The notes under the pieces: generated by a model
Databases searched by the model: none
What the model was told of the DNA's origin: nothing
Seen by the model: only the letters and a program-made list of their open reading frames with translations
Assembly: GCF_023715895.1 (NCBI RefSeq)
Contig: NZ_JAMBOO010000001.1
Coordinates: 248,001-312,000, forward strand
From: Domibacillus indicus
GTDB lineage: Bacteria; Bacillota; Bacilli; Bacillales; Domibacillaceae
Direction of reading: 5' to 3'
DNA: 64,000 nucleotides
Shown: positions 36,629 through 41,672 of the stretch, piece by piece
Layout: the number at the start of each line of letters is the position of its first letter
Position numbering within the stretch: position 1 is the stretch's first letter
Program-made: the position numbers and the translations under genes

Positions 36629-37459
36629 TTATATGAAGAAATCGATACTGTCAGAAGAAACCTTATTTATCTTATACTCTTTTGTCATTATACATCGCTC
36701 GTTTAAAGAAAATGTATCGGACCGCAGTCCAAGCCGTAATGTTTCAAGCGGGATCGCATCAGAAAACGGAATATTAGCAAGGTTCACATTCGGGCCGGCT
36801 ATTTGGATAAAAGCGGTCTGTAATTTTTTTGAGGGTGCTTCAAAAATCATTTTTTGCAGATCCATTCCCGTTTCTAGTATTTTATCCACGATTTCCATGC
36901 GCATTTCCCCATTACTCCGGCAAATTCCGCTTGTGCCGCTTTCACGCGCTTCGGTGATCACTTTGGTTGAGCCGGCTTCAATATCTTCAAGAATCCATTC
37001 GACCCATTGAGATGCATTTTGATGCAGAGATTTGTCACTGTCTTTGGCTCCTACTTCACTAAACACAGTAAAGTCCTTAGCAAACCCTTTTATATAAGCT
37101 GCTTTTTCCCTGTTGGTCATGTCGATTGTGCCGTTCGAGATTTCGATGTACTGGCATCCATGCTTTTGGATAAATTTCTCAAAATCACTCAATTTCTTCT
37201 GGCTGACAAACTTCTCAAATAACGTTCCGCCAAAAAAGAAGTTCACTCCATTTTCCTGCAGGCAGGCAATTTTCTCTTCGAGGTGCTTTGTGACAAGCGC
37301 TGTTCCCCATCCAAATTTCACAAAATCAATATATGCTTCTGAACTATTGATCGTGTCTTGAAAAAGCTGCAATGGAACCCCGTTATCGATCAGAACGGTG
37401 AGCCCATTTCCTCTTGGTTTACTGCTTCTTTTCGGCAGGTTCAGCCCTGTGTCCCTCAT
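36629..37459 (-). CDS. yitD: Phosphosulfolactate synthase (ComA family)
   Basis: TIM-barrel enzyme adding sulfite to phosphoenolpyruvate to form (2R)-phospho-3-sulfolactate. The 276-residue protein carries family blocks DFVKFGWGTAL (near 45-55), FFGGTLFE (near 74-81), EISNGTIDM, FSEVGAKD (near 132-139) and TEARESGTSGI (near 168-178). It overlaps yitC by four bases. Coenzyme M genes beyond these two are absent, so the end product is expected to be 3-sulfolactate, a known component of Bacillus spores. Not to be confused with the competence regulator ComA. Confidence 0.93.
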   Translation of the reverse strand: MRDTGLNLPKRSSKPRGNGLTVLIDNGVPLQLFQDTINSSEAYIDFVKFGWGTALVTKHLEEKIACLQENGVNFFFGGTLFEKFVSQKKLSDFEKFIQKHGCQYIEISNGTIDMTNREKAAYIKGFAKDFTVFSEVGAKDSDKSLHQNASQWVEWILEDIEAGSTKVITEARESGTSGICRSNGEMRMEIVDKILETGMDLQKMIFEAPSKKLQTAFIQIAGPNVNLANIPFSDAIPLETLRLGLRSDTFSLNERCIMTKEYKINKVSSDSIDFFI

Positions 37460-38145
37460 ACATTCACCCTCACAATTCTTGGTAAATTATTTTTCTGGTT
37501 TACTTCCATCACAAAACCAGTGTCCAGCTCTTTCACACACAGGGCAATATCAGCACTTTTAAATTCTGGCCGGTTATCATCAAAAAACTTTTGTGCCGGC
37601 TCTGCTTCTCTAATTCTCGAAACTGTTTCAAACGCGGAGCAGCCTTTCTCTCCTTCGATAATAGCTTTCATGTATTCGGCACAGGCAAGATCCTCATCGC
37701 CACTCGGATGAGAAGCGATTATATTAATGTCCGCGTTTTTCCCGACGAGCTGGCGAATGTATTGAGCGGTTGTTTTCGCATTGGAAAAGCCCGTTACAAA
37801 TACATGGCTGGCGTTTAATGCATGTAACGCTGCTCTTACTCCATTGGTCGTTTTTTGAACGAGAATTTTCCCCTCCATGTTGTTCGCTTCAAGAAGGCTG
37901 GCTGGAGAGTTATCAAGGTCAAATCCAGGGATGTAGAGCCCCTTCTCTTCACCAGCCAGCATGTATGTGGGATTTTTTTCTTTTGTTTGAAGTGCAGAAT
38001 TGATTGTTTCTGCCAGTAAAATTTCCTCTGCCCCTTTTATAAACGCGTAGTGGGCAAAAGTGAACGCACGAATGACGTCAATCACAACATTCACATCGGC
38101 ACAGCTCAGCTGGTGAGAGTGGCCTTGATAAATTCGGACTGCCAT
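37456..38145 (-). CDS. yitC: 2-phosphosulfolactate phosphatase (ComB family)
   Basis: Mg2+-dependent phosphatase of 229 residues converting phosphosulfolactate to sulfolactate. Family features: VVIDVIRAFTFA near 20-31, LAGEEKG near 63-69, FDLDNSPA near 75-82, TTNGVRAALHA near 99-109 and the late block EDLACAEYMK (near 149-158). GGAGAGGAG precedes the ATG. It is the first gene of the two-gene operon with yitD and diverges from a CysP-type permease. Coupling to yitD by a four-base overlap supports a joint role. Confidence 0.93.
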   Translation of the reverse strand: MAVRIYQGHSHQLSCADVNVVIDVIRAFTFAHYAFIKGAEEILLAETINSALQTKEKNPTYMLAGEEKGLYIPGFDLDNSPASLLEANNMEGKILVQKTTNGVRAALHALNASHVFVTGFSNAKTTAQYIRQLVGKNADINIIASHPSGDEDLACAEYMKAIIEGEKGCSAFETVSRIREAEPAQKFFDDNRPEFKSADIALCVKELDTGFVMEVNQKNNLPRIVRVNV

Positions 38146-38504
38146 TATCTGCTCCTCTCCTTTTAACGTTTTCCCTGCCTGCTGACAAACCGCTTATGTT
38201 AGCATTCATTTGTCTCTCACCTTATCAGCATATAGCTAATTTATTCGTCTATTTTTCAGATGGTTCTTGATTTTTGCTTCTTTGGGCATTTGCTCAGCCT
38301 GCTTTTTTCCATTCGAACTCTTTTTCTAAATGCTGAATAAACTGCTTTTAGGAATTCACCTATTTATTGGTTTTGTTTGTTTCAGGAAGGAGTGCAGCCA
38401 GCTGCAGCACAGCTGCTTGTTTAGGAATAACCCGTACAAGATGCCAGTCCAGTGAGAAAATAGAAGGCGGGCGTTACCCGAATGGATAGGAGCGGAACAG
38501 GAAA
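38146..38504. promoter_or_regulatory. Divergent yitC/cysP intergenic region with structured cysP leader
   Basis: 359 bp without a gene. The part nearest cysP (about 38390-38485) can fold into several hairpins: GCAGC (38394-38398) with GCTGC (38411-38415), CTTGT with ACAAG (38416-38440), and CGGG/CCCG (38468-38480). No S-box signature (the CTTATCAAGAG and GGTGGAGGGA-type blocks) is seen, unlike at metN. No clear intrinsic terminator precedes cysP. The part nearest yitC is AT-rich and shows nothing I can name. Confidence 0.45.
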
Positions 38505-39584
38505 ATGATTACCTTATTGGCTTTTCTGGCAGCCCTTTTCTTTGCACTCAATATCGGTGCAAGCGGAGCCGCTGCCTCCATGGGCATTGCCTATGGTTCT
38601 GGAGCGTTAAAAAACAGGCGGATGGCATTGGTTATTTGCGGAATCGGCGTTTTGCTCGGAGCGGCTTTAGGCGGCGGCGAAGTAGCTAAAACCCTTGGTT
38701 CAGGGATTATTCCACAAGAATTGATCAGCATTCACATTTCCTTGATCATTCTTTGCTCGGCCGCTATTTCACTTTTTATCGCCAATATTTCCGGGATCCC
38801 GCTTTCCACAAGTGAAGTGACGGTAGGAGCGATTGTTGGCGTTGGGGTGGCGTACAAACAAGTATTTATCAGTACGCTGTTGACGATTATGATGTATTGG
38901 ATTCTTATTCCGATTGTAGCCTTTTTTTTCGCCTGGCTTTTAAATAAAGGAGTAAAACAAGCAGAAGCCCGGCTGTTGTTTTTAAAAAAGCCGAAATGGA
39001 TCAAAATTTTGTCCGTATTAGTGATCTGCACAGGATTTTTGGAAGCTTTTTCAGCCGGTATGAACAATGTCGCCAACTCGATCGGTCCGCTCGCTGCTTC
39101 CGGGCTGATCTCTATCCAAAACGGGATTGTGATCGGCGGACTATTTACTGCAGCGGGCGCGCTGCTGCTCGGCGCAAAAGTGATCGAAACAAATGGGAAA
39201 AAGCTGACCGACCTGAGTCTGCTTCAAGGAAGTGCGGTTTCAGGTCTCGGCGGGACACTCGTGATTATTGCTTCTCTATTCGGCATTCCTGTTCCACAAA
39301 CCCAGGTGACCACATGCAGTATTCTCGGTATAGGCTTTTCGGAAGAAGGCGCAAAAATATTTCAAAAAGGCATTATCAGCAGGCTGCTGAAAGTATGGCT
39401 CGTGTCCCCGCTTTTTTCTCTGGTTATTTCCTACAACCTCGTTAAGCTGTTTTTGGATTTTGATCTTTATGCCGTCATCGTGGGTGCTTCTGTTTTTGCA
39501 GCTACGATTGGCTCGATCAGCTTGATTAAACCGATCGGCCTTGCAAAGCCTGCTTTCCTAAAAGAAGGAAATAAAGTTAAATAA
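38505..39584 (+). CDS. cysP: Sulfate permease of the PiT family (CysP-like)
   Basis: Secondary transporter of 359 residues and about 11 membrane helices. It belongs to the inorganic phosphate transporter (PiT) family but is closer to B. subtilis CysP, a sulfate permease, than to PitA. The duplicated signature appears as NIGASGAAASMGIAYGSGA (about 16-34) and GMNNVANSIGPLAA (about 185-198). The position next to the sulfolactate genes favours sulfate over phosphate. The start has AGGAAA close by and AGGAG at 14 bases, a weak arrangement. Confidence 0.88.
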   Translation: MITLLAFLAALFFALNIGASGAAASMGIAYGSGALKNRRMALVICGIGVLLGAALGGGEVAKTLGSGIIPQELISIHISLIILCSAAISLFIANISGIPLSTSEVTVGAIVGVGVAYKQVFISTLLTIMMYWILIPIVAFFFAWLLNKGVKQAEARLLFLKKPKWIKILSVLVICTGFLEAFSAGMNNVANSIGPLAASGLISIQNGIVIGGLFTAAGALLLGAKVIETNGKKLTDLSLLQGSAVSGLGGTLVIIASLFGIPVPQTQVTTCSILGIGFSEEGAKIFQKGIISRLLKVWLVSPLFSLVISYNLVKLFLDFDLYAVIVGASVFAATIGSISLIKPIGLAKPAFLKEGNKVK

Positions 39585-39606
39585 GCTGGATCGTTCAAAA
39601 ATAAAG

Positions 39607-39640
39607 AAAGGACCGGAACACATATAGATCGTCCGGTCCT
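39607..39640. terminator. Hairpin terminator between cysP and yitG
   Basis: AGGACCGGA/TCCGGTCCT, 9 bp, with a 14-nt loop. On the minus strand it is followed by TTTCTTTATTTTT, suitable for ending yitG. A second small stem, CCTGTC/GACAGG, overlaps its right edge. Confidence 0.7.
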
Positions 39641-39659
39641 GTCAAGACAGGGAAAGTCT

Positions 39660-40913
39660 TCAGTTTTCGATTTCCTTTACCTGAATAAATTTCATGACCA
39701 CAAATAGCATAATCAGTCCCAGTACGCCTGCTGTAATATACCCTCCATTTAAAAATTTTGCCATCACGATAGACATCAAAGGCGGCCCTGCTGCTACCCC
39801 GGCAAACCGGGCTGCACTGTAAAAAGAGGTAATAGTGCCTCTTTCTTCTTTTTTGATGTTCTCTGTAATAATGGCATCCAGTACAGGCATAACAGCTCCA
39901 ATCGACGTTCCCAGGATGCTGGTCACTACCAAAAGAAGGATCAGCTGCTTGCTGACAAAACCAACAAATACCACACTAATAGATGTAATAATCAAACAAA
40001 CAATAAGGATTTTCCTCATAGTTGGCAAATTCCCTTTGATTTTGCGCCCGACTGTAAACGCCACAATACAAAGCAGGAAAAGCGGAATTGCTAATATAAA
40101 ACCTTTTTTGATGTCAAAAATTTGATGTACTTTCTCCAAAATGTCCGATAGGTAAAATAACACACTGAATAATACCAAAAACACATAAAATCCCAAAAGA
40201 AAAACGGTAAAAAGCCATTTCCCTTCTTTTTTAAGGGTCTTTTTCGTATTATTTAAAAATTCCTTGAATTTTTTAGGCTTTCCCTGTTTTTCCGGTTCTT
40301 TAACAAAGAAAAAAATCAATGCGATTGAAATCAAACTGAAAACAGAAATAGCGAAAAAGGGCACAAACCATAAAAAGGCGGCCAGTATAGATCCGAGGAT
40401 CGGGCTTAACGCTTTTCCAAATGTATTCGACGTTTCAATGGTCCCTAAACAGGCACTTGTTTTTTCCGCATTGTCCTTGTAAAGATCTCCCACCAGCGGC
40501 AGGATAACAGGCATCGCTCCCGCTGAACCAAACCCCTGCAGAATCCGGCCGATAATAATCCAGGCATAGGGATCGGCCATTTTCCAGGAGGCAAACCCGG
40601 CAATGAGTCCTCCAATGAGGGCGAGAATCAAGCTGGGCAAAATGATTTTTTTTCGTCCAAGCCGATCCGATAAATATCCCGCAAGCGGAATTAAAAGAAC
40701 AGCCGCAACCGAGTAACTTGTGATAATCATACTGGACTGAAAAGGGGAAATGCCCACCTTTTTTTCCATGATCGGCAAAACCGGTATCAGCATAGAATTT
40801 CCTAACGTCATGATGAGCGGAATGGAAGCCATACTTACAACACACCATATACTTACTTTCTCAGCCTGTTTCCCCACATGCACACCCCGTTTAATGTTTT
40901 TGTGACAGCTCAT
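39660..40913 (-). CDS. yitG: MFS transporter YitG-like
   Basis: Major facilitator of about 417 residues with 12 membrane helices. The MFS motif A, GYLSDRLGRKK, is clear (about residue 76 of this form) and RILQGFGSAGAMPV follows. It resembles B. subtilis YitG, annotated as a putative efflux transporter; the neighbourhood suggests a sulfolactate exporter, but that is inference. The start is uncertain: ATG 40913 has AAGGAG at 12 bases, while GTG 40877 has GGGGTG at five bases and would remove 12 residues. The frame is open to 40988. Confidence 0.83.
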   Translation of the reverse strand: MSCHKNIKRGVHVGKQAEKVSIWCVVSMASIPLIMTLGNSMLIPVLPIMEKKVGISPFQSSMIITSYSVAAVLLIPLAGYLSDRLGRKKIILPSLILALIGGLIAGFASWKMADPYAWIIIGRILQGFGSAGAMPVILPLVGDLYKDNAEKTSACLGTIETSNTFGKALSPILGSILAAFLWFVPFFAISVFSLISIALIFFFVKEPEKQGKPKKFKEFLNNTKKTLKKEGKWLFTVFLLGFYVFLVLFSVLFYLSDILEKVHQIFDIKKGFILAIPLFLLCIVAFTVGRKIKGNLPTMRKILIVCLIITSISVVFVGFVSKQLILLLVVTSILGTSIGAVMPVLDAIITENIKKEERGTITSFYSAARFAGVAAGPPLMSIVMAKFLNGGYITAGVLGLIMLFVVMKFIQVKEIEN

Positions 40914-41015
40914 TAAATGTATGGTCTCCTTGCGTATTCTTTTTATACAGTGCCGCATACACTTTAAAAAGAAGGACGAGCACGCCATTTTATATGTAAT
41001 TGGGGATGATTTTTT

Positions 41016-41672
41016 CTGAAAACCAACAATAAAAGTTATGCTCCATTGACCTTCCGCGCTTTAGTCAGAAAGTATTTTTTAGTCAGTGTGGGAGCGGTTA
41101 TGCAGGGCTTCGCTATGGGCGTGTTTTTATTCCCTAACTTTATTCCTTCCGGCGGCGGCGCCGGGCTGACTGTACTGCTGAATTACTGGCTGGATATTCC
41201 AATAAGCATTGCGCTGTGGCTTGTTAATTCTTCTATGCTTTTGTTCGCTGTTCACTATTTAGGAGGCATGAGTGCTTTAGGTACACTGCTCGGCATTACG
41301 ATTACCTCTATTTCGGTCAACATCTTTAACGTATACCTAGAATCACCATTTTCAAATGTATGGATTGATTTGTTTTTTGGCTCCCTCTTTTTTGGTACAG
41401 GCGTATCCATTTTATTAAGGCAGGGAGTATCAAACGGAGGAGTTGGCGTCATCGCTTTAATTATTGCCAAGTACAGGCATGTGAATCCCAGTAAACCGCT
41501 TTTTTGGATTAATGGTTTTATTTTCCTGATCACAGCTTATGCCATCGCTTGGGAAATTGTCGTCCAAGCTCTTATTTGCCAATGGATGTCCACAAGAACC
41601 ATTGGCTGGCTGTATACCGTTCCCCGCCCTAAAAACATTCTGACTTTTGATTTTATCTGGCGTAAAAAATAA
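41016..41672 (+). CDS. yitE: YitT/UPF0750 membrane protein YitE-like
   Basis: Membrane protein of 208-218 residues with five to six helices, matching the YitT/UPF0750 family core (FLFPNFIPSGGGAGLTVLLNY near the N-terminus, a block of about 21 residues cited only by its ends FLFPN and VLLNY). It lacks the C-terminal DUF2179 domain of longer members, as does B. subtilis YitE as I recall it. There is no ATG. TTG 41046 has no ribosome site; CTG 41016 has GGGGAT eight bases upstream and gives a natural N-terminus. I tentatively use CTG. Confidence 0.72.
   Translation: MKTNNKSYAPLTFRALVRKYFLVSVGAVMQGFAMGVFLFPNFIPSGGGAGLTVLLNYWLDIPISIALWLVNSSMLLFAVHYLGGMSALGTLLGITITSISVNIFNVYLESPFSNVWIDLFFGSLFFGTGVSILLRQGVSNGGVGVIALIIAKYRHVNPSKPLFWINGFIFLITAYAIAWEIVVQALICQWMSTRTIGWLYTVPRPKNILTFDFIWRKK

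Follow-up and report, generated by a model that had tools for sequence, protein, structure and literature searches.

The window analysed here comprises 64,000 nucleotides of the Domibacillus indicus genome (assembly GCF_023715895.1, contig NZ_JAMBOO010000001.1, positions 248,001 to 312,000). Its positions 36629 to 41672 carry a locus that is probably the Domibacillus form of a known sporulation sulfolactate locus, i.e., a comB-comA pair, a divergently oriented cysP and genes for a YitG-type MFS carrier and a YitT-family membrane protein. An earlier sequence-only reading of the window had given the five genes these names, and Pfam and NCBIfam matches as well as a search with the YitG-type protein of locus L057 agreed with them. 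The features of the locus are as follows.

36629–37459, minus strand: comA (yitD), phosphosulfolactate synthase of the ComB-partnered type (Pfam PF02679, 276 bits; solved relative 1u83; place in the ComA tree)
37456–38145, minus strand: comB (yitC), 2-phosphosulfolactate phosphatase (Pfam PF04029, 135 bits, above cut-off; solved relatives 2z0j and 1vr0)
38237–38264, minus strand: candidate sigma-K-like comB promoter, AC-N17-AATAAATTA, 7 of 8 consensus positions
38317–38344, plus strand: low-scoring sigma-K-like site in front of cysP, 6 of 8 positions, sub-threshold, low confidence
38505–39584, plus strand: cysP, predicted PiT-family sulfate permease (NCBIfam equivalog SulfPermCysPBac, 506 bits, cut-off 400)
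39660–40988, minus strand: YitG-type MFS carrier, proposed sulfolactate carrier (Pfam MFS_1; start uncertain)
40935–40963, plus strand: sigma-E-like element upstream of the YitT-family gene, -10 CATACACT
41016–41672, plus strand: YitE-type membrane protein of the YitT family (Pfam YitT_membrane, 114 bits; start at CTG 41016 or TTG 41046)

comB and comA lie in line and overlap by four bases. The closest solved relative of the window ComA is 1u83, a phosphosulfolactate synthase (E 2.7e-104); the protein stays under the cut-off of the archaeal equivalog TIGR03849 and groups on the B. subtilis-like side of the ComA tree. ComB falls under the NCBIfam equivalog cut-offs. Loci L057 and L063 served for comparison; we take them to be B. 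subtilis-like from their gene order and from a ComA nearly identical to the start of 1u83, a B. subtilis protein. Searched with the YitG-type protein of L057, the window MFS carrier is the clear top match in the genome (318 bits, next 53), and its own top NCBIfam match is BcbE (493, cut-off 600). The window YitT protein is 46% identical to that of L057 in a one-way comparison. Its frame is open upstream to CTG 41016, preceded by GGGGATGAT, and the called start, TTG 41046, is probably too late.

To place the locus, ComA was searched in a family sample of 24 genomes, where it is present in 12, and in an order sample of 397 genomes, where it exceeds the Pfam cut-off in 68. We fetched 73 distinct comA loci above this cut-off and counted partners within six genes of comA. 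Omitted were weak matches below the cut-off (G385, the second of G182, and G254) and the second piece of a split match in G295. The ComA tree of 73 rows, with an unsettled bootstrap and a root placed as a drawing choice, contains clade A (42 rows) as its only supported group (100/97), separate from the rows of the ComB type. The 27 ComB-type loci (clade B) are the remainder, and four distant loci (L068, L075, L076, L086) were tallied separately. Two of the latter have ComB and none has another partner; L076 and L086, with ComB nearby, join the tree beside clade A through a long branch.

All eight comA-bearing Domibacillus loci have the YitT-family gene, and comA, comB, MFS and YitT stand in identical order in each of them. 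With 53 and 55 of the 73 loci, MFS and YitT are more constant partners of comA than cysP, which is linked in ten (seven ComB-type, three clade A; one copy frame-split). The 27 ComB-type loci have ComB in 26 cases, YitT in 16, MFS in 13, CysP in seven and cysH-sat-cysC in four. One might hold that nothing functional connects cysP, MFS and YitT with comBA and that they stand there by chance or as positional leftovers. The partial presence of MFS (13/27) and YitT (16/27) in ComB-type loci would agree with this, as would the decay of cysP in three of the eight Domibacillus loci. We nevertheless regard it as very improbable: clade-A loci, with a ComA of only about 40% identity, have MFS in 40 and YitT in 39 of 42 cases, and an intact cysP lies within about 10 kb of comA in 8 of the 68 comA genomes of the order sample, versus about 0.3 expected from a simple estimate with one copy per 4.2 Mb placed randomly. 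The eight genomes make up about three lineages and are therefore not eight independent events. The linkage of cysP with comA is not chance.

Promoter-like sites at the locus fit expression in the mother cell. The sigma-K-like block upstream of comB is conserved across Domibacillus, with 8/8 positions in L052 and 6/8 in L045. Upstream of the YitT gene, CATACA(C/T)T is kept in 7 of 8 Domibacillus rows, in six of them exactly as CATACACT. For counts across related genomes we scored sigma-K-like sites at a threshold of at least 7/8 positions within 200 bases upstream and sigma-E-like sites at 12/14 positions or more, both by consensus patterns. Upstream regions with a gap of less than 60 bases to the next frame were skipped, which excluded the window's own MFS and YitT sites as well as those of L044, L047 and L048; for the YitT gene of the window, it is the gap to the MFS frame that falls below 60 bases. 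Sigma-K-like sites were found upstream of 36/45 first-in-line comA and 14/25 comB genes, compared with 158/738 other genes of the same loci, and sigma-E-like sites upstream of 35/50 YitT and 17/52 MFS genes, compared with 63/738. Related genomes do not give independent counts; by family group, the numbers are 10/13 for comA and 5/11 for comB (sigma-K-like) and 12/15 for YitT and 6/16 for MFS (sigma-E-like). In L057 and L063, comB reaches 6/8 sigma-K positions and stays under the threshold, perhaps because the start codon is called too far upstream. A sigma-K gene is found above cut-off in this genome, and the cysP element recurs at a similar place in six Domibacillus loci.

According to PMC517825, B. 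subtilis yitCD depends mainly on sigma-K and to a small degree on sigma-E, and the legend of a supplementary figure gives a yitC start site mapped for both factors. The same source has yitCD and yitBA-yisZ expressed late in the mother cell and assigns them, by inference, to the making of phosphosulfolactate. It also describes binding of SpoIIID in front of yitE and a rise in cysH, cysP, sat and cysC that SpoIIID brings about, possibly by an indirect way; sulfolactate makes up about 5% of spore dry weight (PMC517825). The sequence-only reading had called the system undescribed, and this cannot be upheld with that inference for yitCD already in print. Its suggestion that the locus loads the spore holds as the best reading.

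We propose the following course. Late in sporulation, the mother cell would make ComB and ComA from the sigma-K-type promoter. ComA would join sulfite to phosphoenolpyruvate, and ComB would then take off the phosphate to give (R)-sulfolactate. Sulfite would derive from sulfate via CysH, Sat and CysC, the genes of which lie on another contig, with CysP, divergent from comBA, adding sulfate uptake for this synthesis. The MFS carrier and the YitT-family protein would most likely carry sulfolactate from the mother cell towards the forespore. The analysis shows the identities of the genes, the conserved linkages, the CysP tree and the promoter-like sites, whereas we infer the product, its use in the spore, the descent of cysP and the direction of transport; we consider the proposed transport role of MFS and YitT the strongest idea in the window. 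Among the matches of our literature search, which lay outside most subscription journals, we did not find described how sulfolactate reaches the spore; the YitG-type carrier and the YitE-type protein are direct candidates for this route.

Sulfolactate might instead serve a use other than in the spore interior, e.g., export as an osmolyte or decoration of the cell surface, which we judge improbable. In favour of such a use, the MFS carrier is similar to exporters, NeuB and an ATP-grasp enzyme are clustered with comA in two loci of the order (in L113 also FliD), and B. megaterium and B. cereus spores are reported to be without sulfolactate (PMC517825). The sporulation-type sites upstream of comB or comA and YitT and the resemblance to the B. 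subtilis sporulation locus speak for the spore, and none of nine neighbours checked by Pfam is a glycan gene.

The proposed route reaches beyond the locus for its sulfite. The cysH-sat-cysC genes of this genome are on contig C115, i.e., the single Sat with an adjoining CysH lies on another contig than the window, and a second CysH is found elsewhere. The set is hence not self-contained, contrary to what the sequence-only reading had supposed. Sat is present in 13/13 Domibacillus genomes. Only cysP, and not cysH-sat-cysC, stands divergent from the window comB. Nor is a divergent cysH-sat-cysC constant in the family, because 23 of the 27 ComB-type loci are without it in the vicinity of comA.

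The divergent CysP-type permease beside yitC was confirmed and is predicted to transport sulfate. Its motifs GASGAAAS and GMNNVANS, read by eye, are without the PiT aspartates. Sulfate rather than phosphate is the indicated substrate because the protein lies above the SulfPermCysPBac cut-off (506 versus 400 bits). According to PMC5840216, missing phosphate-binding aspartates separate CysP from phosphate PiT carriers. Phosphate transport, which the sequence-only reading had named as refuting its claim, was rejected for the window protein on the equivalog score; furthermore, the genome has a separate PiT-family protein reaching only 98 bits on SulfPermCysPBac.

A neighbourhood survey across Bacillales showed that the linkage, the uniqueness of which to this genome the sequence-only reading had likewise named as refuting its claim, also occurs in other Domibacillus genomes and in two further families. 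cysP is intact at comA in five of the eight comA-bearing Domibacillus genomes (G000, G011, G013, G015, G016). Beyond the genus, a linked copy occurs in the ComB-type locus L055 and in three clade-A loci of a single family, L093, L108 and L111. L053 (G080) has a truncated cysP that keeps about the first 126 residues. In the other genome of the same species (G012), cysP lies in two overlapping frames (L044:7510-8590), a split that may be genuine or a sequencing error.

We compared linked and unlinked copies in a CysP tree of 45 proteins, i.e., nine of the ten linked copies and 36 unlinked regions, 35 of them hand-picked from the 150 matches listed and one being L041. The frame-split L044 cysP is not in the tree, both of its pieces being shorter than 300 residues. 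One supported clade (100/98) unites the Domibacillus linked copies with the L055 linked copy and L164. Outside it, in a clade of lone copies, lies L041, the second CysP of this genome, the deepest fork of the tree being weak; its gene (L041:8837-9916, contig C158) is located beside apparent teichoic-acid export genes, as judged by eye. In the relative L055 (G344), cysH-cysP-sat-cysC is divergent from comB-comA, and L057 and L063 have cysH-sat-cysC without cysP at the divergent place. In the simplest reading, suggested by this one relative and one tree, the Domibacillus cysP would be a relic of an older divergent set of cysH-cysP-sat-cysC beside comBA, and the genus would now be in the course of losing this cysP.

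CysP as the sole sulfate gate of the genome was rejected, given the second CysP (L041) and a TSUP gene in the cys operon. It might be a general sulfate permease that lies beside comBA by chance and feeds all sulfur assimilation, a reading we hold to be rather unlikely. It draws on four Domibacillus sulfate operons (this genome, G013, G010, G018), which consist of cysH-sat-cysC and have no cysP, and on G013, whose linked copy is its sole CysP among the matches listed (down to 423 bits; cut-off 400). However, the same operons carry a TSUP permease gene, a second CysP is encoded elsewhere in this genome, G016 and G011, and G010 and G018 keep sat without a CysP above the cut-off among the matches listed. 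Moreover, CysP accompanies comA in the two other families. We keep to CysP as a real, recurrent but dispensable extra of the locus.

Several observations weigh against the spore-loading reading and the place of cysP in it. A sporulation promoter was sought upstream of cysP, and none of six sites reached the threshold, the window site matching at 6/8 positions only. The motif scores altogether use consensus sequences and related genomes, with the window MFS and YitT upstream regions uncounted. Sulfolactate is not a general spore need, because spores of B. megaterium and B. cereus reportedly contain none (PMC517825). Five of 13 Domibacillus genomes are without comA (one of the five only 77% complete). 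The Domibacillus cysP is split in G012, G018 retains only a C-terminal piece of it, and G010 gives no match. G010 and G018 have comA and Sat and no CysP above the cut-off among the matches listed, and the permease is dispensable because they keep comA and Sat without it. The TSUP (TauE) gene downstream in the four operons (Pfam TauE for this genome; 80–83% identity relatives in G013, G010 and G018) could supply sulfate. The long-branched L164 (G131) adjoins sat and cysC, and its genome gives no ComA match; because L164 belongs to the L055/Domibacillus clade, the comA link need not be ancestral there. Among the matches listed, our literature search found no Domibacillus sulfolactate, expression or transport data. 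cysP, a member of the set in the sequence-only reading, is truly linked and at the same time the weakest link, present at 10/73 loci and damaged or gone in 3/8 Domibacillus. Overall, the outline of that reading stands; the self-containment and the novelty of the core do not.

The most surprising result lies outside the window. In the ComA tree the phosphatase partner tracks the split, i.e., ComB on one side and a histidine phosphatase on the other. Within six genes of comA, 39 of the 42 clade-A loci encode the histidine phosphatase and 38 encode CysH; Sat and CysC are each found in 29 loci, CysP in three. The partner belongs to the histidine-phosphatase superfamily (PF00300, 102 and 83 bits for two members), stays under all NCBIfam cut-offs (three members) and is distantly related to solved phosphatases (best E 9.5e-18). 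Six aligned members share an invariant RHLPT-x-WN start and a GHG motif. A profile of these six found 37 of the 397 genomes at 220 bits or more, the next score being 74 bits. Of these 37 strong matches, 36 are in clade-A ComA genomes and beside comA, so that 36 of the 39 clade-A genomes have the phosphatase there (e.g., L043:10753-11286); the exception is G032 (L180:8376-8930), with the phosphatase gene and no ComA match.

ComB (PF04029) was considered as the clade-A phosphatase and rejected, with 26 of the 39 clade-A genomes lacking a PF04029 protein and 13 having one. We predict that the histidine phosphatase is a second, unrelated phosphosulfolactate phosphatase. The literature search did not find such an enzyme described among the matches listed. 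Clade-A genomes G207, G353 and G390 have neither this phosphatase nor PF04029, and the ComB-type genome G404 of the order sample is also without either; other enzymes may serve the step there because both phosphatases are missing. The strict pairing with clade-A ComA predicts a function for an unnamed protein family. Near the MFS gene, 38 of 42 clade-A loci encode a 94-residue protein (e.g., L097:12161-12445), for which no Pfam match (two members) and no NCBIfam match (one member) was found. In 12 of the 42, a permease of the TauE/SafE family is encoded no more than six genes away from comA (e.g., L043:7330-8106).

Many spore-formers probably use such genes to make spore sulfolactate. Tentatively, and with more doubt than confidence, we suggest that Bacillales have two parallel spore-loading sulfolactate systems that share the YitG-type carrier and the YitE-type protein as mother-cell-to-forespore route. 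One would employ ComB with or without its own sulfate permease, as in the window, and the other the unrelated histidine phosphatase.

Some further observations concern comA and comB elsewhere in the order. A glyoxalase-family protein of about 132 residues adjoins comA in 14 of 27 ComB-type loci (e.g., L053:10448-10846), none of them from Domibacillus. PF04029 is present in 185 order-sample genomes, 144 of which are without ComA, and many PF04029 proteins outscore the comA-linked ones; we suspect that those of ComA-less genomes may be misnamed as phosphosulfolactate phosphatases. At L113:5978-18489, comA and comB are clustered with NeuB, an ATP-grasp enzyme, an aminotransferase, a cytidylyltransferase and FliD, and at L103:6651-16503, comA and a histidine phosphatase are clustered with NeuB and an ATP-grasp enzyme. 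This suggests a sulfolactate-bearing nonulosonic acid on flagellin.

The closest known system is the B. subtilis yitCD and yitBA-yisZ locus with yitE, yitF and yitG (L057, L063). The yitCD sporulation core is known, and the Domibacillus cysP beside comBA is a variation on the B. subtilis arrangement. Both loci have comB-comA, YitE- and YitG-type proteins nearby and sulfate genes divergent from comB, and the mother-cell type promoter of B. subtilis has a candidate counterpart in Domibacillus. The divergent place is taken by cysP in Domibacillus and by cysH-sat-cysC in the B. subtilis-like loci. Seen from the pair, the Domibacillus MFS and YitT genes follow after cysP on the side of comB; those of L057 are found on the side of comA and have a gene for 371 residues between them. 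The sequence-only reading had stated that yitE and yitG flank yitCD in B. subtilis; in L057 they are near, but both on the side of comA. It had also placed the B. subtilis cysP in the cysH operon, and so it is in the B. subtilis-like L134 and L135. This CysP matches the same NCBIfam equivalog and belongs to the same PiT branch as the Domibacillus protein, but the linked Domibacillus copy lies outside a cysH operon and apart on the tree from the B. subtilis-like cys-operon copies. The L055 set cysH-cysP-sat-cysC shares the CysP clade and the divergent place with Domibacillus, which keeps only cysP of its four sulfate genes; L055 in turn is without MFS and YitT within six genes. Clade-A loci, arranged as comA-histidine phosphatase-cysH followed by sat-cysC or cysP and flanked by MFS and YitT, have ComA, the YitG-type MFS, YitT, sulfate genes and sporulation-type sites in common with Domibacillus. 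They differ in their ComA (only about 40% identity), in His_Phos_1 in place of ComB and in the extra 94-residue protein next to MFS.

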